Positions 18,573-27,348 of a stretch of DNA of 64,000 nt are shown one piece after another (the stretch's first letter is position 1; every line of letters starts with the position of its first letter). The DNA is taken from assembly GCF_008868005.1 (NCBI RefSeq), contig NZ_WAAO01000001.1, positions 868,001 through 932,000 on the forward strand, in the 5' to 3' direction. Position numbers and translations under genes: made by a program. The stretch is from Microbacterium algeriense. GTDB lineage: Bacteria; Actinomycetota; Actinomycetes; Actinomycetales; Microbacteriaceae. The notes under the pieces were generated by a model. It searched no databases. It was given only the letters and a program-made list of their open reading frames with translations, and was not told where the DNA came from.

Positions 18573-18679
18573 CCGTCGGCGACACGGCCGCCGAAGTGCA
18601 TTCCGGAATGCTGCAAAAAGCGGCCTGAACAGGTCTGTTTCGGAGCTCTGATGTCGGTGGTCCGGTGTGGGATGGACGT

Positions 18680-20201
18680 ATGAACCCCCTCGCAGAAACC
18701 ATGGATCGGGCCGTCGCCGACCTCGATGCCGTGCTGTCCGCCGAACAGCTCGCCGGACTCGACGACGCCGCCCGACGGGATGTCCTCCGGGCCGCCGGAG
18801 AGGCGCTTCGTCGCGTGGAGGCCGTCGTCGTGGAGGCGGTCGCCTCCGCCGAGCCGTCCTTCCCTGATACGACCGGCTGCCGATCGATGAACGAGCTCCT
18901 GCAGCGGGTGCTCCGTGTGGATGCGCCCGGGGCGTCGCGGGTGACGAAGGCGGCAGCGGCGGTTCGACGCGAGGTGGCGCTGACGACGGGGGAGCGACTC
19001 CCGGCGCGGTTCCCGGCGATCCGCGAGGCGATGCTCGATGGCGTGGTCGGAGTGGCCGGCGTCCTCGCGGCGACAGGGCCGATCCTGCAGGCCGGCGATC
19101 GGATCGGGGTGGAGGATCGGCTCGCCGCCGATGTGGCCCTGGCCGAGCTGGCCCGCGGCATCCCCGACGCCGATGGCGGCGAGCCGGATGGCGAAGGCGC
19201 CGAGTCCGACGGCGCGCCGTCCGCAGCGCCGCCGGCCACTCCCGAAGACATCCGGCAGTACGCCCTGCTGCTCGCGCAGTTGCTCGATCCGGATGGTGCC
19301 GAGCCTACGGACGGCAAAGCGCGGAACCAGCGATTCGTCACCATCGGGCGGCTGCGCAACGGCGTGCACCCGCTCCGCGGGAACCTGCTGCCGGAAGTGG
19401 CCGCTCAGCTGCAGCTCATCATCGACGCGCAGTGCAATCCGAAGACGGAGGGGCCGCCCGAACCGGGCGTGATGTTCCGTGCGGAGAGCGAGCCGGCCGG
19501 GCGCGGCCCCGAGGCCGGTGCAGCCTCTGCCGGTGCCGGTGCCGGTGCCGGTGCCGACGCAGACTCGGGCGGCACGGACCCTGCCGACTCCGACCGCTGG
19601 AACTCCGACCCGCGCAACGTGATCGATCAGCGCACCGCCGCGCAGAAGCGGCACGACGCGCTGGCGGCCGCGCTCGGGATCGCCGCGCGTCATGACGACA
19701 TGCCCCGGCTGGCCGGGGCGTCGCCGACGCTCGTGGTGCACGCCGATGCGAACGACCTCGCTTCCGGCACCGGGTGGGCGACCGTGGCGGGCTCCCAGGT
19801 GCCGGTGCCGATCGGGGTCGCGACCCAGGCCGCGTGCACGGGGGCGATCCAGCGGGTGCTGTTCGACGAAGGCCGCATCGTCGGCACGACCGTCATCGAT
19901 CGGGTGTTCACGGTGCACCAGCGCCGCGCGATCATCGCCCGAGATGGAGAATGCCTGATCCCCGGCTGCCATGTGCCGGCGTCCTGGTGCGAGATCCACC
20001 ATGTCGTCGAGCACGCCAGAGGAGGGCCGACCGACACCGACAACGGCGTTCCCCCTGTGCTGGTGGCATCACCGCTCCCTGGACCGATCGGGGTGGGAGA
20101 TCCGGATGGATGGCGGGATTCCGCAGATCCGCGGACCGGCATGGTGGGACCCCGAACGTCGCTGGCGTGTCCCGCGGACGCGGCTGACCGCCGCTGCGTG
20201 A
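18680..20201 (+). pseudogene. DUF222/HNH endonuclease gene with a +1 frameshift
   Basis: The N-terminal 330 residues follow the DUF222 (13E12 repeat) plan, then the HNH motif begins: CLIPGCHVPASWCEIHHVVEHARGG. After DTDNGV the frame diverges at a run of five C (20051-20055). Removing one C restores LCWWHHRSLDRSGW and a normal C-terminus RGPAWWDPERRW ending at 20201. The HNH is therefore split: either a true disabling indel, a phase-variable tract, or an assembly error. The ATG at 18680 is chosen as it matches the family's NPLAETMDRAV start. An Ala/Gly-rich linker (GAGAGAGADAD, about 290-300) is low complexity. These genes are multi-copy in actinobacteria and of unclear function. Confidence 0.85.
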
Positions 20202-20207
20202 AGGCGG

Positions 20208-20326
20208 GTCACCGGAGGCTTGGCCCGGAAGCGGCGGCCGGGTGCGGGCTGCGCGAGCCGGGGTGTGTCACCGGAGGCATGGTCCGGAAGCGGCGGCCGG
20301 GGCCGGCGATGCGCGGGCCGGGGCGT
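20208..20326. repeat. Tandem duplication of about 60 bases
   Basis: GTCACCGGAGGCTTGGCCCG... (20208) is repeated with a few changes from 20267, and a third copy begins at 20327 (GTCAGCGGAAGG), running into the response-regulator stop. It separates the HNH gene from the convergent regulator gene. Confidence 0.8.
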
Positions 20327-20327
20327 G

Positions 20328-20984
20328 TCAGCGGAAGGAGACGAGTCCGGCGTGTGCGGCCGTCACCAGGATCTGCACCCGGTCGCGCAGATGCCACTTG
20401 GCCATCATGCGCCCGAGGTGGGCTTTGACGGTTCCCTCCGAGACGATCAGCGTCTTCGCGATCTCGGCGTTCGACATGCCCTGCGCCAGGCACTGGAGCA
20501 CCTCGGCCTCGCGCTCCGTGAGCGGCTCGAGGGACTCGGCCTCGGTGGCGGCCGGCGTGGAGTCGCGGACGTGCCGGATGAGCATGGAGGCGATGCGGGG
20601 TGAGAGCGAGCTGGCCCCGCTGTACACCTCCCGCACACCCGTCACGATCTCCTCAGCGCTCGAGTCCTTGAGCAGGTAGCCGGAGGCCCCGGCGCTGAGC
20701 ATGGGCAGCACGGTGTCGCTGCCATCGAGCGTCGTCACCGCGAGCACCCGCACATGAGGCCAGCGTTCCGCGATCACCCCGGTCGCCTCGATGCCATCCA
20801 TCTCCGGCATCTGGACGTCCATCATCACGACATCCGGCTGCTCGCGCTCGACCGTGCTGATCGCCTCCACACCGTCCTCCGCCTGCGCGATGACGGTGAT
20901 CTCCGGGTCGCGCGACACGAAGTGCGACAGCGCCGAACGGACGAGGGGATCGTCGTCGACGATCACGACACGGATTTCCTGCAT
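20328..20984 (-). CDS. NarL/LuxR-type response regulator, partner of the divergent kinase
   Basis: 218 residues. Receiver domain with acidic pair DDD at 10-12, phosphoacceptor Asp56 (VVMMDVQMP) and Lys106 (GYLLKDSS); C-terminal LuxR HTH from about 152 (LTEREAEVLQCLAQGMSNAEIAKTL, then SEGTVKAHLGRMMAKW). It is divergent from the peptide-kinase pair at 21134-22342. A short inverted repeat at 21026-21047 in the spacer may be its binding site. Expected to be phosphorylated by the HisKA_3 kinase and to control the locus and perhaps distant genes. Confidence 0.93.
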   Translation of the reverse strand: MQEIRVVIVDDDPLVRSALSHFVSRDPEITVIAQAEDGVEAISTVEREQPDVVMMDVQMPEMDGIEATGVIAERWPHVRVLAVTTLDGSDTVLPMLSAGASGYLLKDSSAEEIVTGVREVYSGASSLSPRIASMLIRHVRDSTPAATEAESLEPLTEREAEVLQCLAQGMSNAEIAKTLIVSEGTVKAHLGRMMAKWHLRDRVQILVTAAHAGLVSFR

Positions 20985-21025
20985 GGAGGAAGCCTAACGG
21001 CGTGGGAGCTTCACCGAAGGCATGT

Positions 21026-21047
21026 AGACCTTTGGCTAGCGAGGTCT
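21026..21047. promoter_or_regulatory. Inverted repeat AGACCT-N10-AGGTCT, candidate response-regulator site
   Basis: Six-base arms separated by ten bases, in the spacer between the regulator and the peptide-kinase genes. The half-site spacing (about 1.5 turns) is plausible for a LuxR-type dimer. It is only a candidate. Confidence 0.4.
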
Positions 21048-21133
21048 GGACTTGAGACAGATGTGCGCCCGCAAGTTCGCCGAGAAGATGAATACAGACA
21101 TCAACGAACGGCTACATAATGGAGGTGAATGTA

Positions 21134-21181
21134 ATGACTTTCTGGCAGCAGGTTGGCAAGTTTTTCGGTCTCGTCCGCTAG
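21134..21181 (+). CDS. 15-residue amphipathic peptide, candidate signal or leader for the adjacent kinase
   Basis: Reads MTFWQQVGKFFGLVR. The start is set by GGAGGTGA at 21121-21128, an almost perfect Shine-Dalgarno with eight bases between GGAGG and the ATG, among the strongest in the window. The peptide has one Lys and one Arg, no acid, and aromatic residues at 3, 4, 10 and 11 that fall on one face of a helix. No export signal or processing site is seen. It ends 30 bases before the kinase ATG, so both should share an mRNA. It could be a secreted autoinducer, a membrane-active peptide sensed by the kinase, or a translated leader controlling kinase expression. No family recognised. Confidence 0.6.
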   Translation: MTFWQQVGKFFGLVR

Positions 21182-21211
21182 CGTACCTGGCGAATAGGAG
21201 ATAGTGAACCC

Positions 21212-22342
21212 ATGGCCTTCGACCAATCACTCCGGCGATCTGCGGATTCGTTCCGGTTGGGTCGAGGCGAGAAGCTCAGCGCGATCGAGCGGATCGTCGT
21301 CCTGGTCATCATCGCCATCACCATCGCCGCAGACGTCATCGGCTTCTTCACCACGCCGGGTGTGAATCCGGCCGCACTCCTCGTGAGCGTCGCATGCACC
21401 GCAGCGTTCGCTCTCTACCTCTGGAACACCCTCATCGCGACATGCGCCCTCGGCGTCGTGTTCGCAACCTCTTTCCTCGTCGGGACCGAGTCTCAGGTCT
21501 TGACCGCCGCCGCTGTCGCGGCCGGCCTGGTCATGCGCCTGGGGTGGACGTCTCTGATCCTGTCGTACACCGGTGCGTTCCTGATCGCCGCAGCCGTCGT
21601 CGCCAACGGCGACGCTGACGCCGAAGTGAACGTCGGACTGTTCCTCGTCTTCGCCACGGTGGCCGGAGCCGTCGGGTTCGCCCTGCGGCTCGCCTTCGCT
21701 CGGGGCAGTCGCCTCGAGCGCGAACTCGCGGAACGCGCCGAACAGGAACGGCAGGCCGTCCTCGCCGAGCGACGTTGGATCGCCGGCGAGCTGCACGACA
21801 GCATCGCGCACCACCTCACGGTGGTCGCCTTGCACGTGCAGATGCTCGAAGACCCCGAGACCAGCACCGACTCGCAGGAGGCCATCCGTGTCGCGGCCCG
21901 CAAGGCCATGACCGACCTCCGCTTCGTGATCGAACTCGCCGACGACGGACCGCAGACCGCGGTCCAGACCGGCGACCTCGCCGCAGCGATCGACGAAGCA
22001 CAGGGAGAGTTCGAAGCCGCTGGTCACTCCGTGGACAGACAGGGCGACCCCCGCGACGAGCGCATCCCGCGCGCCGTCGAGATCGTCCTGGCCCGCATCG
22101 TGCGGGAGTCCGCCACGAACATCCTCAAATACGCCGGCCCCGGCGAGGTGCAGATCCACCTCGACGTGGACGACGAGATCGCCCTCCGCAGCCCCCTGCC
22201 CACCACGCCGCGTCGCGAGCTCTCGTCCAGCCGCACAGGCCTCGGGCGGATGGCGGAACGGGTCATGGGGGCGAGCGGCGAGTTCAGCGCCGGCGAAGTG
22301 GAAGGATCCTGGGTCGTGTCGGCCCGCCTCCCCGTCGTCTGA
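21212..22342 (+). CDS. NarL-type sensor histidine kinase (HisKA_3) with six-helix membrane domain
   Basis: 376 residues. Residues 28-161 contain five or six membrane helices with very short loops, so the signal is probably sensed in or at the membrane. A coiled linker (RLERELAERAEQERQ) leads to the H-box RWIAGELHDSIAHHLTVV (His195). The ATPase domain has an N-box (RESATNILKYAG, about 298-309) and TGLGRMAER (342-350), but the usual DNGxG of the G1 box is replaced by EIALRSPLP, a degenerate form. AGGAGA precedes the ATG. Directly downstream of the 15-residue peptide gene; partner regulator is divergent. Confidence 0.9.
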   Translation: MAFDQSLRRSADSFRLGRGEKLSAIERIVVLVIIAITIAADVIGFFTTPGVNPAALLVSVACTAAFALYLWNTLIATCALGVVFATSFLVGTESQVLTAAAVAAGLVMRLGWTSLILSYTGAFLIAAAVVANGDADAEVNVGLFLVFATVAGAVGFALRLAFARGSRLERELAERAEQERQAVLAERRWIAGELHDSIAHHLTVVALHVQMLEDPETSTDSQEAIRVAARKAMTDLRFVIELADDGPQTAVQTGDLAAAIDEAQGEFEAAGHSVDRQGDPRDERIPRAVEIVLARIVRESATNILKYAGPGEVQIHLDVDDEIALRSPLPTTPRRELSSSRTGLGRMAERVMGASGEFSAGEVEGSWVVSARLPVV

Positions 22343-22607
22343 TGGCTTAGAGTGTGTGAGCAGCCGTTTTCGGATCCGCGAGAACCTAGACGAAAGTCTA
22401 GAAGAGTCTCGACGTTCGACCCTTCAGAACGGCTTGCGGCCGGGCATAATCTGAAGGCTCCCCAGATAAAGCGTCCCCAGCGCTGCGATCGCGGGCGCGA
22501 TCTTTCTGGCTTCTGAAATACTTCACGCGCTCGCGATCGCCTTCTGCGTTAACGGCGCGTTTTCTGCGTCGACGGGAGAGGATCGCCCGGATCCGGCGAT
22601 CCGCCGG
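22343..22607. other. AT-richer spacer with hairpins, no gene seen
   Basis: Contains CTAGAC-GAAA-GTCTAG (22387-22402), a small tetraloop hairpin, a CATAAT box at 22445 that could be a -10, and the terminator-like hairpin at 22487-22507. A short RNA of about 50 bases between the last two is conceivable but unsupported. It separates the kinase from the convergent GntR gene. Confidence 0.5.
22487..22507 (+). terminator. Intrinsic-type terminator after the kinase
   Basis: GATCGCG-GG-CGCGATC followed by TTTCT. Seven-base stem with a short U-run, 145 bases after the kinase stop. Confidence 0.5.
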
Positions 22608-23351
22608 CTACGCCCCGACAGCTCGCATGTAGTGTCCGTCCGTCGAGATCCCGGATGCGGCGACCGTGAACCGCACGACCTCGCTCAGGTAGCGGTCCTC
22701 CGACGCCTCGAAGATCCGGCCGTCCGCGTCGCGCGACGTCCGGGTGAGGCGCAGGATGGGCGTCCCGCGGGGGACGCGCAGCAACGCGGCGTCCTGCTCG
22801 TCGGCCGCCACCGCGTCGATCACGTGCTGCAGCGCCGCGATCGGATGCCCGACAGAGGCCAGGTGCTCCGTGATCGACACCTGGTCGAGATCGACATCGA
22901 ACAGGCGCCGCCCCGGGACCTCCGTATAGGAGAGGCGCTCGAGCATCGTCGGTCGGCCGTCGAGCAGCCGCAGCCGCACGACGCTGACGATCGTGTCATC
23001 CACGCCGACGCCTAGCGCCGCCGCCATGTCCCCGGCTCTGCGCAGACTCAGCTCCTGCGTCTGCGCACCGGGGGTGACGCCCAGCTCCCTCGCCCAGCGC
23101 GTGAACGGCACCGAGACGTCCACGGCCTGATTGGCCTTCCGCGAGACGACGCGCGCGGGGCGCCCCCGGGTCGTCTCGATCAGGCCCTCGCCGCGGAGAG
23201 CGGCCAGGGCGTTGCGGATCGGGCCGCGCGACGTGTGCCACCTCTCGGCCAGTTCGGCTTCCGTCGGCACGTCGTCACCAGGGCGCAGCGTGCCCGCAGC
23301 GATCTGCGCGCGGAGGTCCTCGGCGATCTGGGTGTACACAGCTTCAGCCAC
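22608..23351 (-). CDS. GntR-family regulator (PhnF/UTRA type) of the phosphonate cluster
   Basis: 247 residues. N-terminal winged helix (YTQIAEDLRAQIAAGTLRPGDDVPTEAEL, HTH with TSRGPIRNALAALRGEGLI) and a C-terminal UTRA ligand domain (LDGRPTMLERLSYTEVPG, then GTPILRLTRTSRDADGR). Divergent from phnD, as PhnF-type regulators usually are. The start is GTG at 23351; TAATGT six bases upstream suggests a leaderless mRNA, and a TAGGTACAT box overlaps it. The same box lies in front of phnD. It probably represses both and responds to a phosphonate or phosphate-related ligand. Confidence 0.9.
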   Translation of the reverse strand: MAEAVYTQIAEDLRAQIAAGTLRPGDDVPTEAELAERWHTSRGPIRNALAALRGEGLIETTRGRPARVVSRKANQAVDVSVPFTRWARELGVTPGAQTQELSLRRAGDMAAALGVGVDDTIVSVVRLRLLDGRPTMLERLSYTEVPGRRLFDVDLDQVSITEHLASVGHPIAALQHVIDAVAADEQDAALLRVPRGTPILRLTRTSRDADGRIFEASEDRYLSEVVRFTVAASGISTDGHYMRAVGA

Positions 23352-23352
23352 A

Positions 23353-23361
23353 TAGGTACAT
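23353..23361. promoter_or_regulatory. TAGGTACAT box 1 over the gntR promoter
   Basis: Overlaps the predicted leaderless -10 (TAATGT, minus strand, 23358-23363) of the GntR gene. An identical nine-base word is at 23450-23458. Confidence 0.6.
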
Positions 23362-23449
23362 TACTTGGTCACCGCGGCGGCCGTCGTCGCGTTCGAGGAG
23401 TGTTCATCCAGGCGAATGCTCGGTAAACGAGCCCTGAACTCTTTCGAGT

Positions 23450-23458
23450 TAGGTACAT
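23450..23458. promoter_or_regulatory. TAGGTACAT box 2 over the phnD promoter
   Basis: Lies 62 bases before the phnD ATG within TTAGGTACATAT, where TACATA could be the -10. With box 1 it suggests that one GntR repressor controls both divergent transcripts. Confidence 0.6.
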
Positions 23459-23520
23459 ATCTCGGGAGGACACCTGCGAGAGTCTTCCGTGGATCACCCC
23501 TCACACCCTGAAAGGTCCTC

Positions 23521-24450
23521 ATGAAGCTTCGCGCTCTCCCCGCCCTCGCCGGCGCGGCGATCCTCGCACTCGGTCTCGCCGCCTGTTCCGGCTCCGCCGA
23601 GGCCACCGGCACCCCCGGCTCCGACGACACGTCGTCCACCAGCGGGTTCGCGGTCGACGAGAACACCCTGGTCTTCGGTGTCGTGCCCGACTCGGTCGAC
23701 ACCGAGACGAACTACCAGCCGCTCATGGACTACATCGCCCAGCTCACGGGCAAGACCGTCGAGTACCACGAGTCGACGGACTACGCGGCCCTGATCGAGG
23801 CGGCCGTGGCCGGCAAGGTCGACGTCGCATCCTTCTCCGGCTTCACCTACGTGACCGCCACCAACAACGGCGCCCAGCTCACCCCGATCTCCTCGATCGT
23901 GACCGCCGAGGGCCAGGAGCCCGGCTACTACTCGCAGGCGATCGTCCCCGCCGGCAGCGACATCAAGAGCATCGAGGACTTCAAGGGCAAGAAGGTCTGC
24001 TTCGTCGACCCGTCCTCGACCTCCGGCTACCTCTTCCCGTCGTACAACCTGCTCAAGGCCGGCATCGACCCCAAGACCGACATCACCCCCGTGTTCGCGG
24101 GCAAGCACGACGTGAGCGTGCAGAAGGTCGGCGAGGGTGCGGAGTGCGAGGCCGGCTTCGCGGAGGACTCGGAGGTCGCGAAGTCCGACAAGGTGGAGGT
24201 CATCGACGAGACGATGGTGCCCGGTGCCCCGCTCGTGTACTCGTCGACGCTTCCCGACGACGTCTCGCAGAAGCTCATCGACGGCCTCTCCGAGATCACG
24301 ATCGACGACATCATCGCGGCCGGCATCGACAGCGCCGACACCGACGCCTTCCGCAGCGTGTTCTACGCCACGAAGCCCGTGGACGACGCGTACTACGACC
24401 TGATCCGCGACATCTGCAAGGAGACCGAAGCGGAGCAGTGCCAGGGCTGA
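23521..24450 (+). CDS. phnD: Phosphonate/phosphite ABC transporter substrate-binding lipoprotein
   Basis: 309 residues. Lipoprotein signal with lipobox LAAC (Cys about 22), then a disordered Ser/Thr/Gly linker. The binding domain has LVFGVVPDSVDTETNYQPLMDYI, VDVASFSGFTYV, GYYSQAIVPAGSDI and VCFVDPSSTSGYLFPSYNL, where the Ser/Thr cluster binds the phosphonate in PhnD/PtxB-type proteins. Captures substrate outside and delivers it to the fused permease. GAAAGG precedes the ATG. First gene of the cluster. Confidence 0.93.
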   Translation: MKLRALPALAGAAILALGLAACSGSAEATGTPGSDDTSSTSGFAVDENTLVFGVVPDSVDTETNYQPLMDYIAQLTGKTVEYHESTDYAALIEAAVAGKVDVASFSGFTYVTATNNGAQLTPISSIVTAEGQEPGYYSQAIVPAGSDIKSIEDFKGKKVCFVDPSSTSGYLFPSYNLLKAGIDPKTDITPVFAGKHDVSVQKVGEGAECEAGFAEDSEVAKSDKVEVIDETMVPGAPLVYSSTLPDDVSQKLIDGLSEITIDDIIAAGIDSADTDAFRSVFYATKPVDDAYYDLIRDICKETEAEQCQG

Positions 24451-24595
24451 CCCCGCCCGGCGCCCTTCGTCTCGTCGGCTCGTGAGCGAGCGGAGCGGGA
24501 CGGAGGGCGCTGCTCGCTCGGGAACCCGCCCCCGGAATCTGGGCGAACGCAGCGAGACGAACGACGCCCGCGACACCGATGACAAGGAAGAAGAC
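24451..24595. other. phnD-phnC spacer with inverted repeats
   Basis: TTCGTCTCG (24465-24473) pairs with CGAGACGAA (24553-24561), and the middle has GCTCGTGAGCGAGC-type palindromes. Such hairpins after a binding-protein gene often stabilise its mRNA and lower expression of the permease genes; that role is inferred. Confidence 0.5.
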
Positions 24596-25422
<827 letters not shown>

Positions 25423-25426
<4 letters not shown>

Positions 25427-27348
25427 CGTCGCTCGACGCTTCGACAGGCTCAGCGACCCACTCGGGGGGTGGCTCAGCGACCCACTCGGGGGGTGGCTCA
25501 GCGACCCAGGGTGGTGGCGCTTCGACAGGCTCAGCGACCCACTCGGGGGGTGGCTCAGTGACCCAGGGGGGTGGCGCTTCGACAGGCTCAGCGACCCATC
25601 CGGGGGGTGGCTCAGCGACCCAGGGTGGTGGCTCAGCGAGCAAGCCGGGTGGGGGCGGCGCGGGCGTTGCGGAGCGCGCGCCGAAGCGACCGGTGTCGCC
25701 CGAGCGCATCGCGGCCTCGCTCACGCTGGTGGCGCTCGTCGTGCTCGGCATCCTCGCGGTGCGCGACGTCGACATCTCCATCCCGGCGATGGTGCAGAGC
25801 TGGGGCAACGCGGAGAACTTCATGGCGCGCGTGGGGGGACTGTCGTTCCCCGAGCCGGGCGACCTCGTCTGGCTGATCGCGCTCACCGTCGGGCTCGTCC
25901 TCGTCGGCACGCTGCTCGCGGCGGTGCTGTCGGTGCCGATCGCCTACCTCGCCGCGTCCAACACGACACCGGGGAACGGCTGGCGGGCCGCGGCGCGGTT
26001 CATCGGCGTCCTCACCCGTGCGCTGCCCGACGTCGTCCTCGCGATGGCCTTCGTGCTGATGTTCTCGCTCGGCACGCTGCCGGGCATCCTCGCCATCGGC
26101 ATCCACTCGATCGGAATGATCTCGAAGATGTTCGCCGACGCGATCGAGCAGATCGACGAAGGGCCGCGCCTCGCCATCCGAGCCGCCGGAGGATCGAGGA
26201 TGCAGGAGTTCGCGTCCGGCATCCTCCCGCAGGTGCTCCCCAGCTGGGTGGCCACCGTGCTGCACCGCAACGACATCAACCTGCGCGGCAGCGTCGTGCT
26301 CGGCTACGTCGGTGTCGCCGGTCTCGGTCTCGAGATGTCGTACGCGTTCAAGGCGCTCAACTACGGCAAGGGCCTCGGGATCGCCCTCGTCATCTTCATC
26401 CTCTGCATCGTGATGGAGATCGTCTCCAGCATGGTGCGCGGCGCGATGCTCGGCGAGCAGCAGCAGACCCGCTCGTGGATCGATCGCCTCCTGCATCCGC
26501 GCCTCGGCGCGCGCACCGCCCCGACGTCGACCGCGCGTCCCGCGTGGGCGTCCAGCCCACGGACGGCGGTGCGTCGCCCCTGGACCGGGCAGCGCGTGCG
26601 CCACACGATCGCCGGTGTCATCGCCGTGCTCGTGGTGATCGGCAGCGTCGTCGTCAGCCAGATCAACTGGATGGACCTCTTCACGTTCTGGGCCAAGCTG
26701 CCCGAGGTCGCCGCGCGGTTCTGGCCGCCGTCGTTCGGGAACTACGACGCGAGTGCCATGGTCGAGGCGATGCGCGAGACGGTCGCGATCGCGCTCGCCG
26801 CCACCGTGCTCACGCTGCTCCCTTCGCTCCTGCTCGGATCCCTCGCCGCCCGCAACGTCGCTCCGAGCTCGGGAGCCCGTGGCACAGCGCGGCTGCTGCT
26901 CGTCGGCATCCGCGGCATCCCGGAGCTGATCCTCGCGATCGTGCTCGTCGTCATCACCGGGCTCGGCGCCCAGGCGGGCGTGATCGCGCTCGCGATCGGC
27001 GGCATCGGGCTGCTCGGCAAGCTCATCGCCGACTCGTTCGAAGAGGTGGACCGCGGACCGGAACGGGCCCTCCGCGCGGTCGGCGCGACCCGGCTGCAGA
27101 CCTACACGGCCGCCACGGTGCCGCAGGGGATGCAGGCGCTGATCGGGCACAGCTTCTACATGCTGGACACGAACATCCGCGCGGCGACGATCCTCGGCAT
27201 CGTCGGCGGAGGCGGCGTCGGGTACTACCTGCTCAACGCCAGCCAGGGCTCGCGCTACGAGACCGTGACGGCGATCGTGTTGATGATCCTCGCCACCGTG
27301 CTCGTGGTCGAAGGACTCGCGATGTGGATGCGGAAGGTGTTCCGATGA
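25423..27348 (+). CDS. phnE: Fused double PhnE permease with repeat-encoded N-terminus
   Basis: 641 residues holding two PhnE domains that are separate proteins in many bacteria. Domain 1 (about 105-350) has the coupling segment GGSRMQEFASGILPQVLPSW; domain 2 (about 390-640) has GATRLQTYTAATVPQGMQ. Each has about six helices. The first 80 residues are THSGGGSATQGGG-type, encoded by the repeat array at 25439-25637, and are followed by KRPVSPERI, where ordinary permeases begin. The ATG overlaps the phnC stop, so the repeat part must be translated unless an internal start is used. The tail would lie in the cytoplasm. Confidence 0.9.
25439..25637. repeat. Repeat array encoding the PhnE N-terminal extension
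   Basis: Three copies of the family core (here CTTCGACAGGCTCAG, at 25439, 25520 and 25577) with intervening GGGGGTGGCTCAGCGACCCA units. Translated as STGSATHSGGG/STGSATQGGG with no stop. Confidence 0.95.

Follow-up and report, generated by a model that had tools for sequence, protein, structure and literature searches.

In the agr system of Staphylococcus aureus, a peptide, a multi-helix kinase, a regulator, and a small RNA (sRNA) are encoded in one locus, and the peptides and sensors occur in matched types. The kinase and regulator of agr are of the AgrC and LytTR types, and a processing protease, AgrB, accompanies a cyclised cysteine peptide. DesK, of the DesK/DesR pair of Bacillus, is a membrane-fluidity sensor not known to work with a peptide or an sRNA. 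The locus described here resembles agr in its layout. It lies in Microbacterium algeriense (genome of 3.6 Mb), within a 64,000-nucleotide stretch of contig NZ_WAAO01000001.1 (positions 868,001 to 932,000), referred to here as the window. The locus, called the cassette, contains a 15-codon peptide gene, a histidine kinase, a divergent response regulator, and a predicted sRNA 3’ of the kinase. It looks like an unreported peptide-signalling circuit among peptide-sensing two-component systems. With some reserve, the cassette is probably a self-contained circuit for sensing a peptide, made up of the peptide, the kinase, the regulator, and the promoters of the peptide and sRNA. Three kinds of signal agree: codon selection in the peptide gene, coevolution of the peptide with the sensor, and an RNA tied to the cassette.

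Parts of other described systems also resemble the cassette. Loops H7, H13, and H14 of RNAIII have UCCC motifs that engage Shine-Dalgarno sequences, according to the available portion of the source (PMC3861533). LhrC of Listeria monocytogenes, a five-copy RNA dependent on a two-component system, has a repeated UCCC motif, located in two of its loops and in a single-stranded segment (PMC4132741, in the sections available). Those sections mention no peptide gene for LhrC, and the cassette RNA, about 90 nucleotides in length, differs from it and from RNAIII in matching no Rfam family. Pairing of UCCC loops with Shine-Dalgarno sequences is established for Firmicutes in the accessible text of both reports (PMC3861533, PMC4132741). 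In RgaSR-SpoZ of Clostridioides difficile, also Firmicutes, a two-component system is the direct activator of both a regulatory sRNA and an operon for a peptide, and the excerpt available states that the peptide does not activate that kinase-regulator pair (PMC10602386). Set beside the cassette by description only, this system shares a two-component system, an sRNA, and a peptide. The leaderless communication peptides (LCP/SIP) are very short, have no leader, and are divergent from their receptor gene, the receptor being the regulator RopB (PMC10518010, partial text). The cassette peptide is also very short and leaderless. The coevolving partner of the cassette peptide is a membrane kinase, however, and the LCP/SIP account, in its accessible part, speaks of Firmicutes alone (PMC10518010).

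The cassette shares with agr the combination of peptide, multi-helix kinase, regulator, and predicted sRNA in one locus. It differs in that its kinase is HisKA_3/DesK-like, its regulator is NarL/LuxR-like (Response_reg and GerE), and its peptide has no cysteine. No match to AgrB (PF04647) was found in the whole M. algeriense genome, with a weak control in which 1 of 14 control genomes matched, below the cut-off. Membership in agr fails on the kinase, the regulator, and the processing gene. The likeness is one of logic only, and no tested part is homologous. A literature search covering few subscription journals and no preprints found no published report of this cassette. A 2016 review, in its available text, describes Microbacterium as without evidence of quorum sensing, and describes actinobacterial signalling in general as using cyclic or modified peptides and butyrolactones (PMC4748050). 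The central features of the cassette, in window coordinates, are as follows.

20328..20984, minus strand: response regulator of NarL/LuxR type (Pfam Response_reg and GerE), an open reading frame (ORF) of 218 amino acids, divergent from the peptide and kinase genes
21121..21128, plus strand: Shine-Dalgarno sequence GGAGGTGA, 5 nucleotides upstream of the peptide ATG
21134..21181, plus strand: peptide gene of 15 codons, product MTFWQQVGKFFGLVR, with ATG at 21134 and TAG ending at 21181
21212..22342, plus strand: HisKA_3 (DesK/NarX-like) histidine kinase of 376 amino acids (Pfam), with a DesK-like catalytic half
21281..21706, plus strand: sensor part of the kinase (residues 24–165), six predicted membrane-type helices (AlphaFold2 model and coevolution)

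The peptide gene was proposed in an initial annotation of the window. Its coordinates, its Shine-Dalgarno sequence, and the 30-nucleotide gap between its stop codon and the kinase ATG at 21212 agree with that proposal, as do the HisKA_3 assignment of the kinase (39.9 bits against a cut-off of 24, E 6e-10) and the LuxR-type partner on the minus strand. Orthologues of the kinase were sought in 295 Microbacterium genomes, with the six best candidates scored per genome. The kinase is intact in 66 genomes (about 62–100% identity) and broken in one more (G033). The G250 kinase matched only over residues 121–375. The divergent orientation of the regulator is common to the orthologous loci among those listed.

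A small frame, searched for with a rule of at least 5 of 6 matches to GGAGGT as the ribosome site, is present at all 66 loci with an intact kinase. It has 15 codons in 61 loci, 14 in one, and 13 in four. The 66 loci encode 44 distinct peptides, in which M1, W4, and G12 are invariant; F3 is found in 61 of 66 and R15 in 53 of 61. Codon changes were placed on the kinase tree for 59 full-length frames, leaving out the five peptides shorter than 15 codons and loci L066 and L088. There are 114 synonymous and 121 nonsynonymous changes, with 62.9 synonymous changes expected (p 1e-12, changes taken as independent), and the changes are distributed 75/35/125 over the three codon positions. The synonymous excess is absent from the other two frames. 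Purifying coding selection acts in the peptide frame only. A chance ORF is rejected on the conservation at 66 of 66 loci together with the synonymous excess, and the initial annotation’s expectation of a frame conserved with synonymous bias is borne out. Frame-breaking indels, which that annotation took to speak against the gene, occur once, in the peptide frame at locus L089 of G033 (by eye; the automatic search gave no frame). The kinase there is also broken, in two frames.

The peptide had also been described as cationic, aromatic, and amphipathic. The first two properties hold and the third finds weak support. The hydrophobic moment is 0.39, a value reached by 18.5% of shuffles, and the mean z over the 44 distinct peptides is +0.66. 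A cationic, aromatic peptide of about 15 residues would suit a membrane-active bacteriocin or toxin-like product that the kinase detects, with a protective response through the sRNA. This alternative is improbable given the unexceptional hydrophobic moment, the purifying selection on the peptide sequence, and its pairing with the sensor. No immunity or export gene was recognised nearby.

The peptide varies together with the sensor part of the kinase. Distances were compared over 64 of the 66 loci (L066 and L088, where the script misplaced the start, were left out). Peptide distance correlates with sensor distance at 0.76 and with distance in the kinase half at 0.60. When the kinase half is controlled for, peptide and sensor correlate at 0.58 (p 0.0005); when the sensor is controlled for, peptide and kinase half correlate at 0.08 (p 0.07). 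The correlation with the regulator, sensor held constant, is weaker yet significant at 0.17 (p 0.002). A partial Mantel test of peptide with sensor given kinase half, leader, spacer, and regulator gives 0.533 (p 0.001). As controls, the leader reaches 0.170 and the intervening peptide-kinase spacer 0.012, and the value for peptide with kinase half is −0.079. The spacer is well conserved (mean distance 0.25), and its distances are noisy because it is only about 29 nucleotides long. Linkage as the main cause of the coevolution is rejected on the leader and spacer controls.

The conserved spacer and the position of the peptide gene 30 nucleotides before the kinase would fit a leader peptide whose translation controls kinase expression, an option raised in the initial annotation. 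This option is disfavoured and very unlikely, since the amino-acid sequence is selected, beyond the ribosome site alone, and coevolves with the sensor. Several distant relatives also have a G+C-rich hairpin after the peptide stop and a GATAAT-like box shortly before the kinase start (by eye), so that kinase expression looks separate there.

The pairing of peptide and sensor is also seen in one genome, G208. When G208 is compared with G229, the regulator, the promoter, peptide codons 1–9, and the kinase domain are 84–100% identical per 100-nucleotide window (most at least 92%). Codons 10–15 and the sensor are only 56–73% identical, the codon limit being set by eye. The foreign stretch in G208 begins near peptide codon 10 and ends near kinase codon 175, and both flanks match G229. 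The alignment identifies G208 as a block swap, with the 3’ half of the peptide and the sensor domain replaced as one unit. The joint variation of peptide and sensor, in the Mantel tests and in this swap, is a further likeness to agr. The peptide-kinase-regulator signalling cassette put forward in the initial annotation is supported by the conserved frame, by coevolution that neighbouring DNA does not share, by the block swap, and by the joint decay of peptide and kinase.

In the AlphaFold2 model of the kinase (mean pLDDT 78, pTM 0.45), six helices precede the kinase core, and the last of them is continuous with the phosphorylation helix. The six are predicted membrane helices, called from their hydrophobic sequence. 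The catalytic half resembles DesK by sequence (E 5e-4) and in its best Foldseek matches, and DesK is its closest solved structure. The chains that align comprise the cytoplasmic portion of DesK. The listed Foldseek matches cover the catalytic half, and none among them is a relative of the membrane sensor fold.

Coevolution with a membrane sensor would fit equally well if the peptide were a small membrane-bound subunit, lying against the kinase helices, that sets kinase activity from inside the cell. Small membrane proteins set the activity of some kinases in this way. The peptide has no leader, no recognised exporter adjoins it, and it is hydrophobic, cationic, and mildly amphipathic. The relatives of the peptide point the other way, with hydrophobic N-termini and paired cysteines that resemble processed or oxidised exported peptides. 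Locus L146, which belongs to another family, contains an ORF whose start is signal-peptide-like (by eye). Neither of these is decisive for the present clade, and the subunit alternative, although unlikely, keeps appreciable weight beside a sensing circuit.

Three things were absent from the initial annotation: a gene for an sRNA downstream of the kinase, the shared operators, and the wider peptide family. The operator and promoter-like features are as follows.

21025..21051, no strand assigned: 5’ operator-like inverted repeat TAGACCTTTGGCTA gcg AGGTCTGGAC, in the gap that separates the regulator gene from the peptide gene
21060..21089, plus strand: possible peptide promoter GATGTG-18-GAAGAT, a conserved block read by eye
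22386..22401, no strand assigned: 3’ operator, a perfect palindrome CTAGACGAAAGTCTAG, in relaxed form in most orthologous loci
22423..22450, plus strand: sRNA promoter-like site TTCAGA-16-CATAAT (sigma-70 scan)

The motif TAGACCTTTGGC[CT]A, with at most 3 mismatches, is found at 64 of the 66 loci, 108–111 nucleotides before the peptide ATG. The remaining two loci have the form of the 3’ operator at the place of the 5’ operator, which ties the two motifs together. The relaxed form of the 3’ operator, with at most 2 mismatches, is found at 60 of 66 orthologous loci. In four of the six misses there is a diverged relative (by eye) or the kinase gene runs into the operator; the other two, L064 and L088, are ambiguous. 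This operator starts 73–75 nucleotides before the first CCCC in 47 of 59 loci. The positions of both operator-like repeats, and the general behaviour of LuxR-type proteins, suggest that the regulator would bind both. The sRNA promoter-like site is the only sigma-70-like site in positions 20900–22700 (0.1 expected). Transcription of the peptide gene would start near 21096.

Downstream of the 3’ operator, the order is promoter-like site, conserved C-rich segment, hairpin with a CCCCA loop, and long G+C-rich stem.

22457..22545 (approximate), plus strand: predicted small RNA with a C-rich 5’ end, both ends predicted
22470-22484, plus strand: CCCCA-pentaloop hairpin of the predicted sRNA (fold and alignment)
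22485-22499 / 22526-22540, plus strand: long closing stem of the predicted sRNA (fold and alignment)
22545-22559, plus strand: terminator-like site, 0.7 expected by chance, which may extend the sRNA

Alignment A3 contains 30 of the 57 distinct RNA sequences, three of them trimmed by hand. The other 27 (tandem hairpins, near-duplicates, and wrongly cut ends) stand outside it, and the script missed the RNA of L071, where it detected no stem although the hairpin is present. A3 has 19 pairs, 6 with changes on both sides, and 99.3% of its cells are paired. Cells changed on both sides number 19. Shuffles give 6.0, with none of 500 reaching 19, and slid controls give no more than 1. Further pair types are no higher than in shuffles (16 vs 15.4). 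Some species have two or three tandem hairpins, and three tandem-hairpin species chosen for folding give z values of −5.7, −5.1, and −7.0 relative to shuffles.

Under a strict rule, the 66 loci contain no pentaloop in 16 cases, one in 41, two in 8, and three in 1, compared with 0.045 per locus in shuffles. These pentaloops sit on eight different stems. Fifteen of the 16 misses have GCGCATCCCCAGCGC, with two extra loop bases, and the other (L080) has a shifted loop. A model of the RNA (R1) was built from 30 of the 66 loci and run with strict scan filters, which lose weak matches. Among the 295 genomes it matches 71 at E of 0.01 or less. Sixty-six match at no less than 42 bits, all beside the cassette kinase (coordinates matched by eye). 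These are 66 of the 67 genomes with an intact or broken kinase and none of the 228 without. The five kinase-less genomes among the matches score 30 bits or less. The kinase-bearing G250 has no R1 match and has CCCCA loops on other stems. In G033, where the kinase and peptide are broken, the RNA is retained (67.6 bits).

No known RNA family, 6C RNA included, was found for it in Rfam. Window positions 20900–23400 give two chance-level Rfam matches (E 0.26 and 2), neither in that region, and ten related loci give two sub-threshold riboswitch matches only. One of these two is far from the RNA; the other, at L103, lies on the opposite strand of the RNA (27.8 of 39 bits, E 0.77). A Guanidine-I riboswitch match at L076:3542-3661, near the cassette of one species, reaches 41.5 of 63 bits, below the curated score. 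Judged from these alignments, the predicted RNA is a conserved, covarying structure tied to the cassette, and it looks like the output of the cassette. If it is made under the control of the regulator, this predicted RNA, with its CCCCA loops and a related operator before it, would correspond to the UCCC-loop effector RNA of agr.

A tiny hydrophobic peptide and a small RNA sharing one locus could also be read as a type I toxin-antitoxin pair, with the RNA antisense to the peptide mRNA. This form of the toxin option in the initial annotation is not supported, and it is hardly credible. In prediction, the RNA forms no better duplex around the peptide start than shuffled sequences do (76% of 300 are as good or better). 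The RNA is located beyond the 3’ end of the kinase gene and has an operator and a promoter-like site of its own.

For a sensing circuit, the parts would connect as follows. A very short leaderless peptide, most probably from the outer side of the membrane, would act on the six-helix sensor of the kinase. The kinase would hand its phosphate to the divergent LuxR-type regulator, which would then bind inverted repeats of the TAGAC(CTTTGG/GAAAGT) type at two promoters. One promoter would drive the peptide in a feedback loop, and the other, 3’ of the kinase, would drive the small RNA. The RNA would expose UCCCCAG in its hairpin loops and at its 5’ end and block the ribosome-binding sites of target mRNAs. 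We infer the export and direct binding of the peptide, the contact between regulator and operators, the sign of regulation, and the expression and targets of the RNA. Action of the RNA on Shine-Dalgarno sites in this kind of organism would be by analogy.

Several observations weigh against this circuit. The kinase was not found in 228 of the 295 genomes, and the circuit is therefore accessory. No signal sequence is visible in the clade-A peptides, and no exporter, protease, or modification gene was recognised among the neighbours examined (DUF222, the GntR regulator, and the phosphonate transporter). The sigma-70 scan of 20900–22700 gave no promoter before the peptide. The palindrome CTAGACGAAAGTCTAG, with at most 3 mismatches, occurs at 5 places in its own genome compared with 34 for the reversed control, so that no operator regulon could be drawn, and the second of these places was uninformative on inspection. 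The loop complement CTGGGGA is not enriched in the window (7 found vs 9.0 expected), and the window RNA alone folds just moderately better than shuffles (z −2.6). Nine loci have an identical peptide despite differing kinases. The Mantel permutation p-values given above are optimistic for related sequences, and the correlation cannot tell direct binding from another joint constraint.

If the circuit is real, the genus has a peptide circuit that includes a regulatory RNA of its own, is unrelated to agr in all tested parts, and would be a second natural solution of the agr kind. It offers cheap and exact tests in the form of a synthesisable 15-mer, a 90-nucleotide RNA to probe, and two operators. 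The natural swap alleles would be useful for mapping specificity. The case would also show that genes of 13–15 codons are discoverable through coevolution with a partner.

The cassette kinase has relatives beyond its orthologues. Of 19 named loci with a kinase relative, 18 are in Microbacterium (77–93% identity) and one is elsewhere (27%). The M. algeriense genome has 14 HisKA_3 matches, and a divergent regulator was found only for the cassette kinase; 11 have a co-directional regulator and two have none in the stretch searched. A small ORF passing the ribosome-site rule is present at 6 of the 13 other loci, and none resembles the cassette peptide.

Peptides of distant kinases were sought with a rule of 12–36 codons, a ribosome site with at least 5 of 6 matches, and a core pattern. 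The rule finds a peptide for 37 of 58 distant kinases with a divergent regulator and for 0 of 37 with a co-directional one; shuffled spacers give 0.16 of 58. The core pattern was derived from some of these loci and some are near-identical, so the 37 are not independent, whereas the co-directional and shuffle controls are. Outside this count stand L111, L112, L119, and L136, which have no regulator class, and L128 and L133, which have no kinase match. Among the 21 misses, a peptide is seen by eye in 14, several without a clear ribosome site, and nothing peptide-like is seen by eye at L113, L145, L220, L230, and L231. At L209, the peptide core FGMDLCKMLGLRH has no stop before the kinase, which may be a decaying or fused peptide. 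The last miss, L146, has a longer ORF, described below. By sequence, most of the distant divergent-regulator kinases examined carry related peptides.

A frequent motif in the distant peptides is W..LC..LG.CS. Typical relatives are MFASSIWTALCKLLRACS, MYSTNGLWTALCRLFGVCN, MFSGTKIIAPLQLSFFEWLCQMFGICS (from another genus), and the cysteine-free MWYWLGQLIGIWK. Their N-terminal hydrophobic stretches are variable and their paired cysteines are near the end. Three further genera of the family have such a peptide (L097/L098, L099, and L124). A scan of the class covered 394 genomes, and among the 29 new loci retrieved and examined, peptides of the cassette kind were found only in Microbacterium; the 21 loci with a co-directional regulator have no such peptide. 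In another family of the class, L146 and L242 (G839) have a divergent regulator and a HisKA_3 kinase with a 69-codon ORF between them. This ORF has a Sec-signal-like start (by eye) and an end segment with two cysteines, and it is a possible exported version of the arrangement.

Fifteen distant loci with cysteine-free peptides, including L103, L122, and L205, have a longer RNA 3’ of the kinase. An operator like TAGACGAAAGTCG, in some cases with a few changes, precedes it in the 14 loci displayed of the 15. Alignment A5 of this RNA has 37 pairs, of which 13 show changes on both sides. It contains 39 doubly changed cells; shuffles give 13.2, with none of 500 reaching 39, and slid controls do not exceed 9. 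Two loops of the longer RNA contain CCCCA or CCCCCC. A pentaloop search with stems of at least 5 pairs finds 11 of the 15 cysteine-free loci and no other distant locus scanned.

A broader proposal, tentative and somewhat short of an even chance, is that Microbacteriaceae hold a large family of pheromone systems with a leaderless or short-leader peptide of 12–30 residues, a divergent regulator, and a multi-helix kinase. Two lineages, with LVR-type and WYWLGQ-type peptides, would have reached an agr-like sRNA output with C-rich loops on two differing scaffolds that share the CCCCA pentaloop. Peptide and sensor would move between species as swappable specificity blocks.

In the longer RNA of the 15 loci, an invariant TCGGGGA could pair with the RNA’s own C-rich loops, suggesting an internal switch. 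At the cysteine-type loci L109 and L110, the kinase gene is followed by operator-like palindromes, about 150 nucleotides with no obvious gene, and a strong terminator-like stem. This stretch may be another regulator-controlled RNA.

The cassette is flanked by other genes in the window. A DUF222 gene lies upstream of the regulator (18665-20428) with an HNH motif near its end (by eye). Its frame is apparently shifted after the motif, which indicates a broken gene or an assembly error. On the other side, a GntR/UTRA regulator adjoins a phosphonate-type ABC transporter (22611-27348), opposite the sRNA gene, with a substrate-binding protein at 23521. The end of the GntR gene also seems to lie 3’ of the RNA in many orthologous loci.

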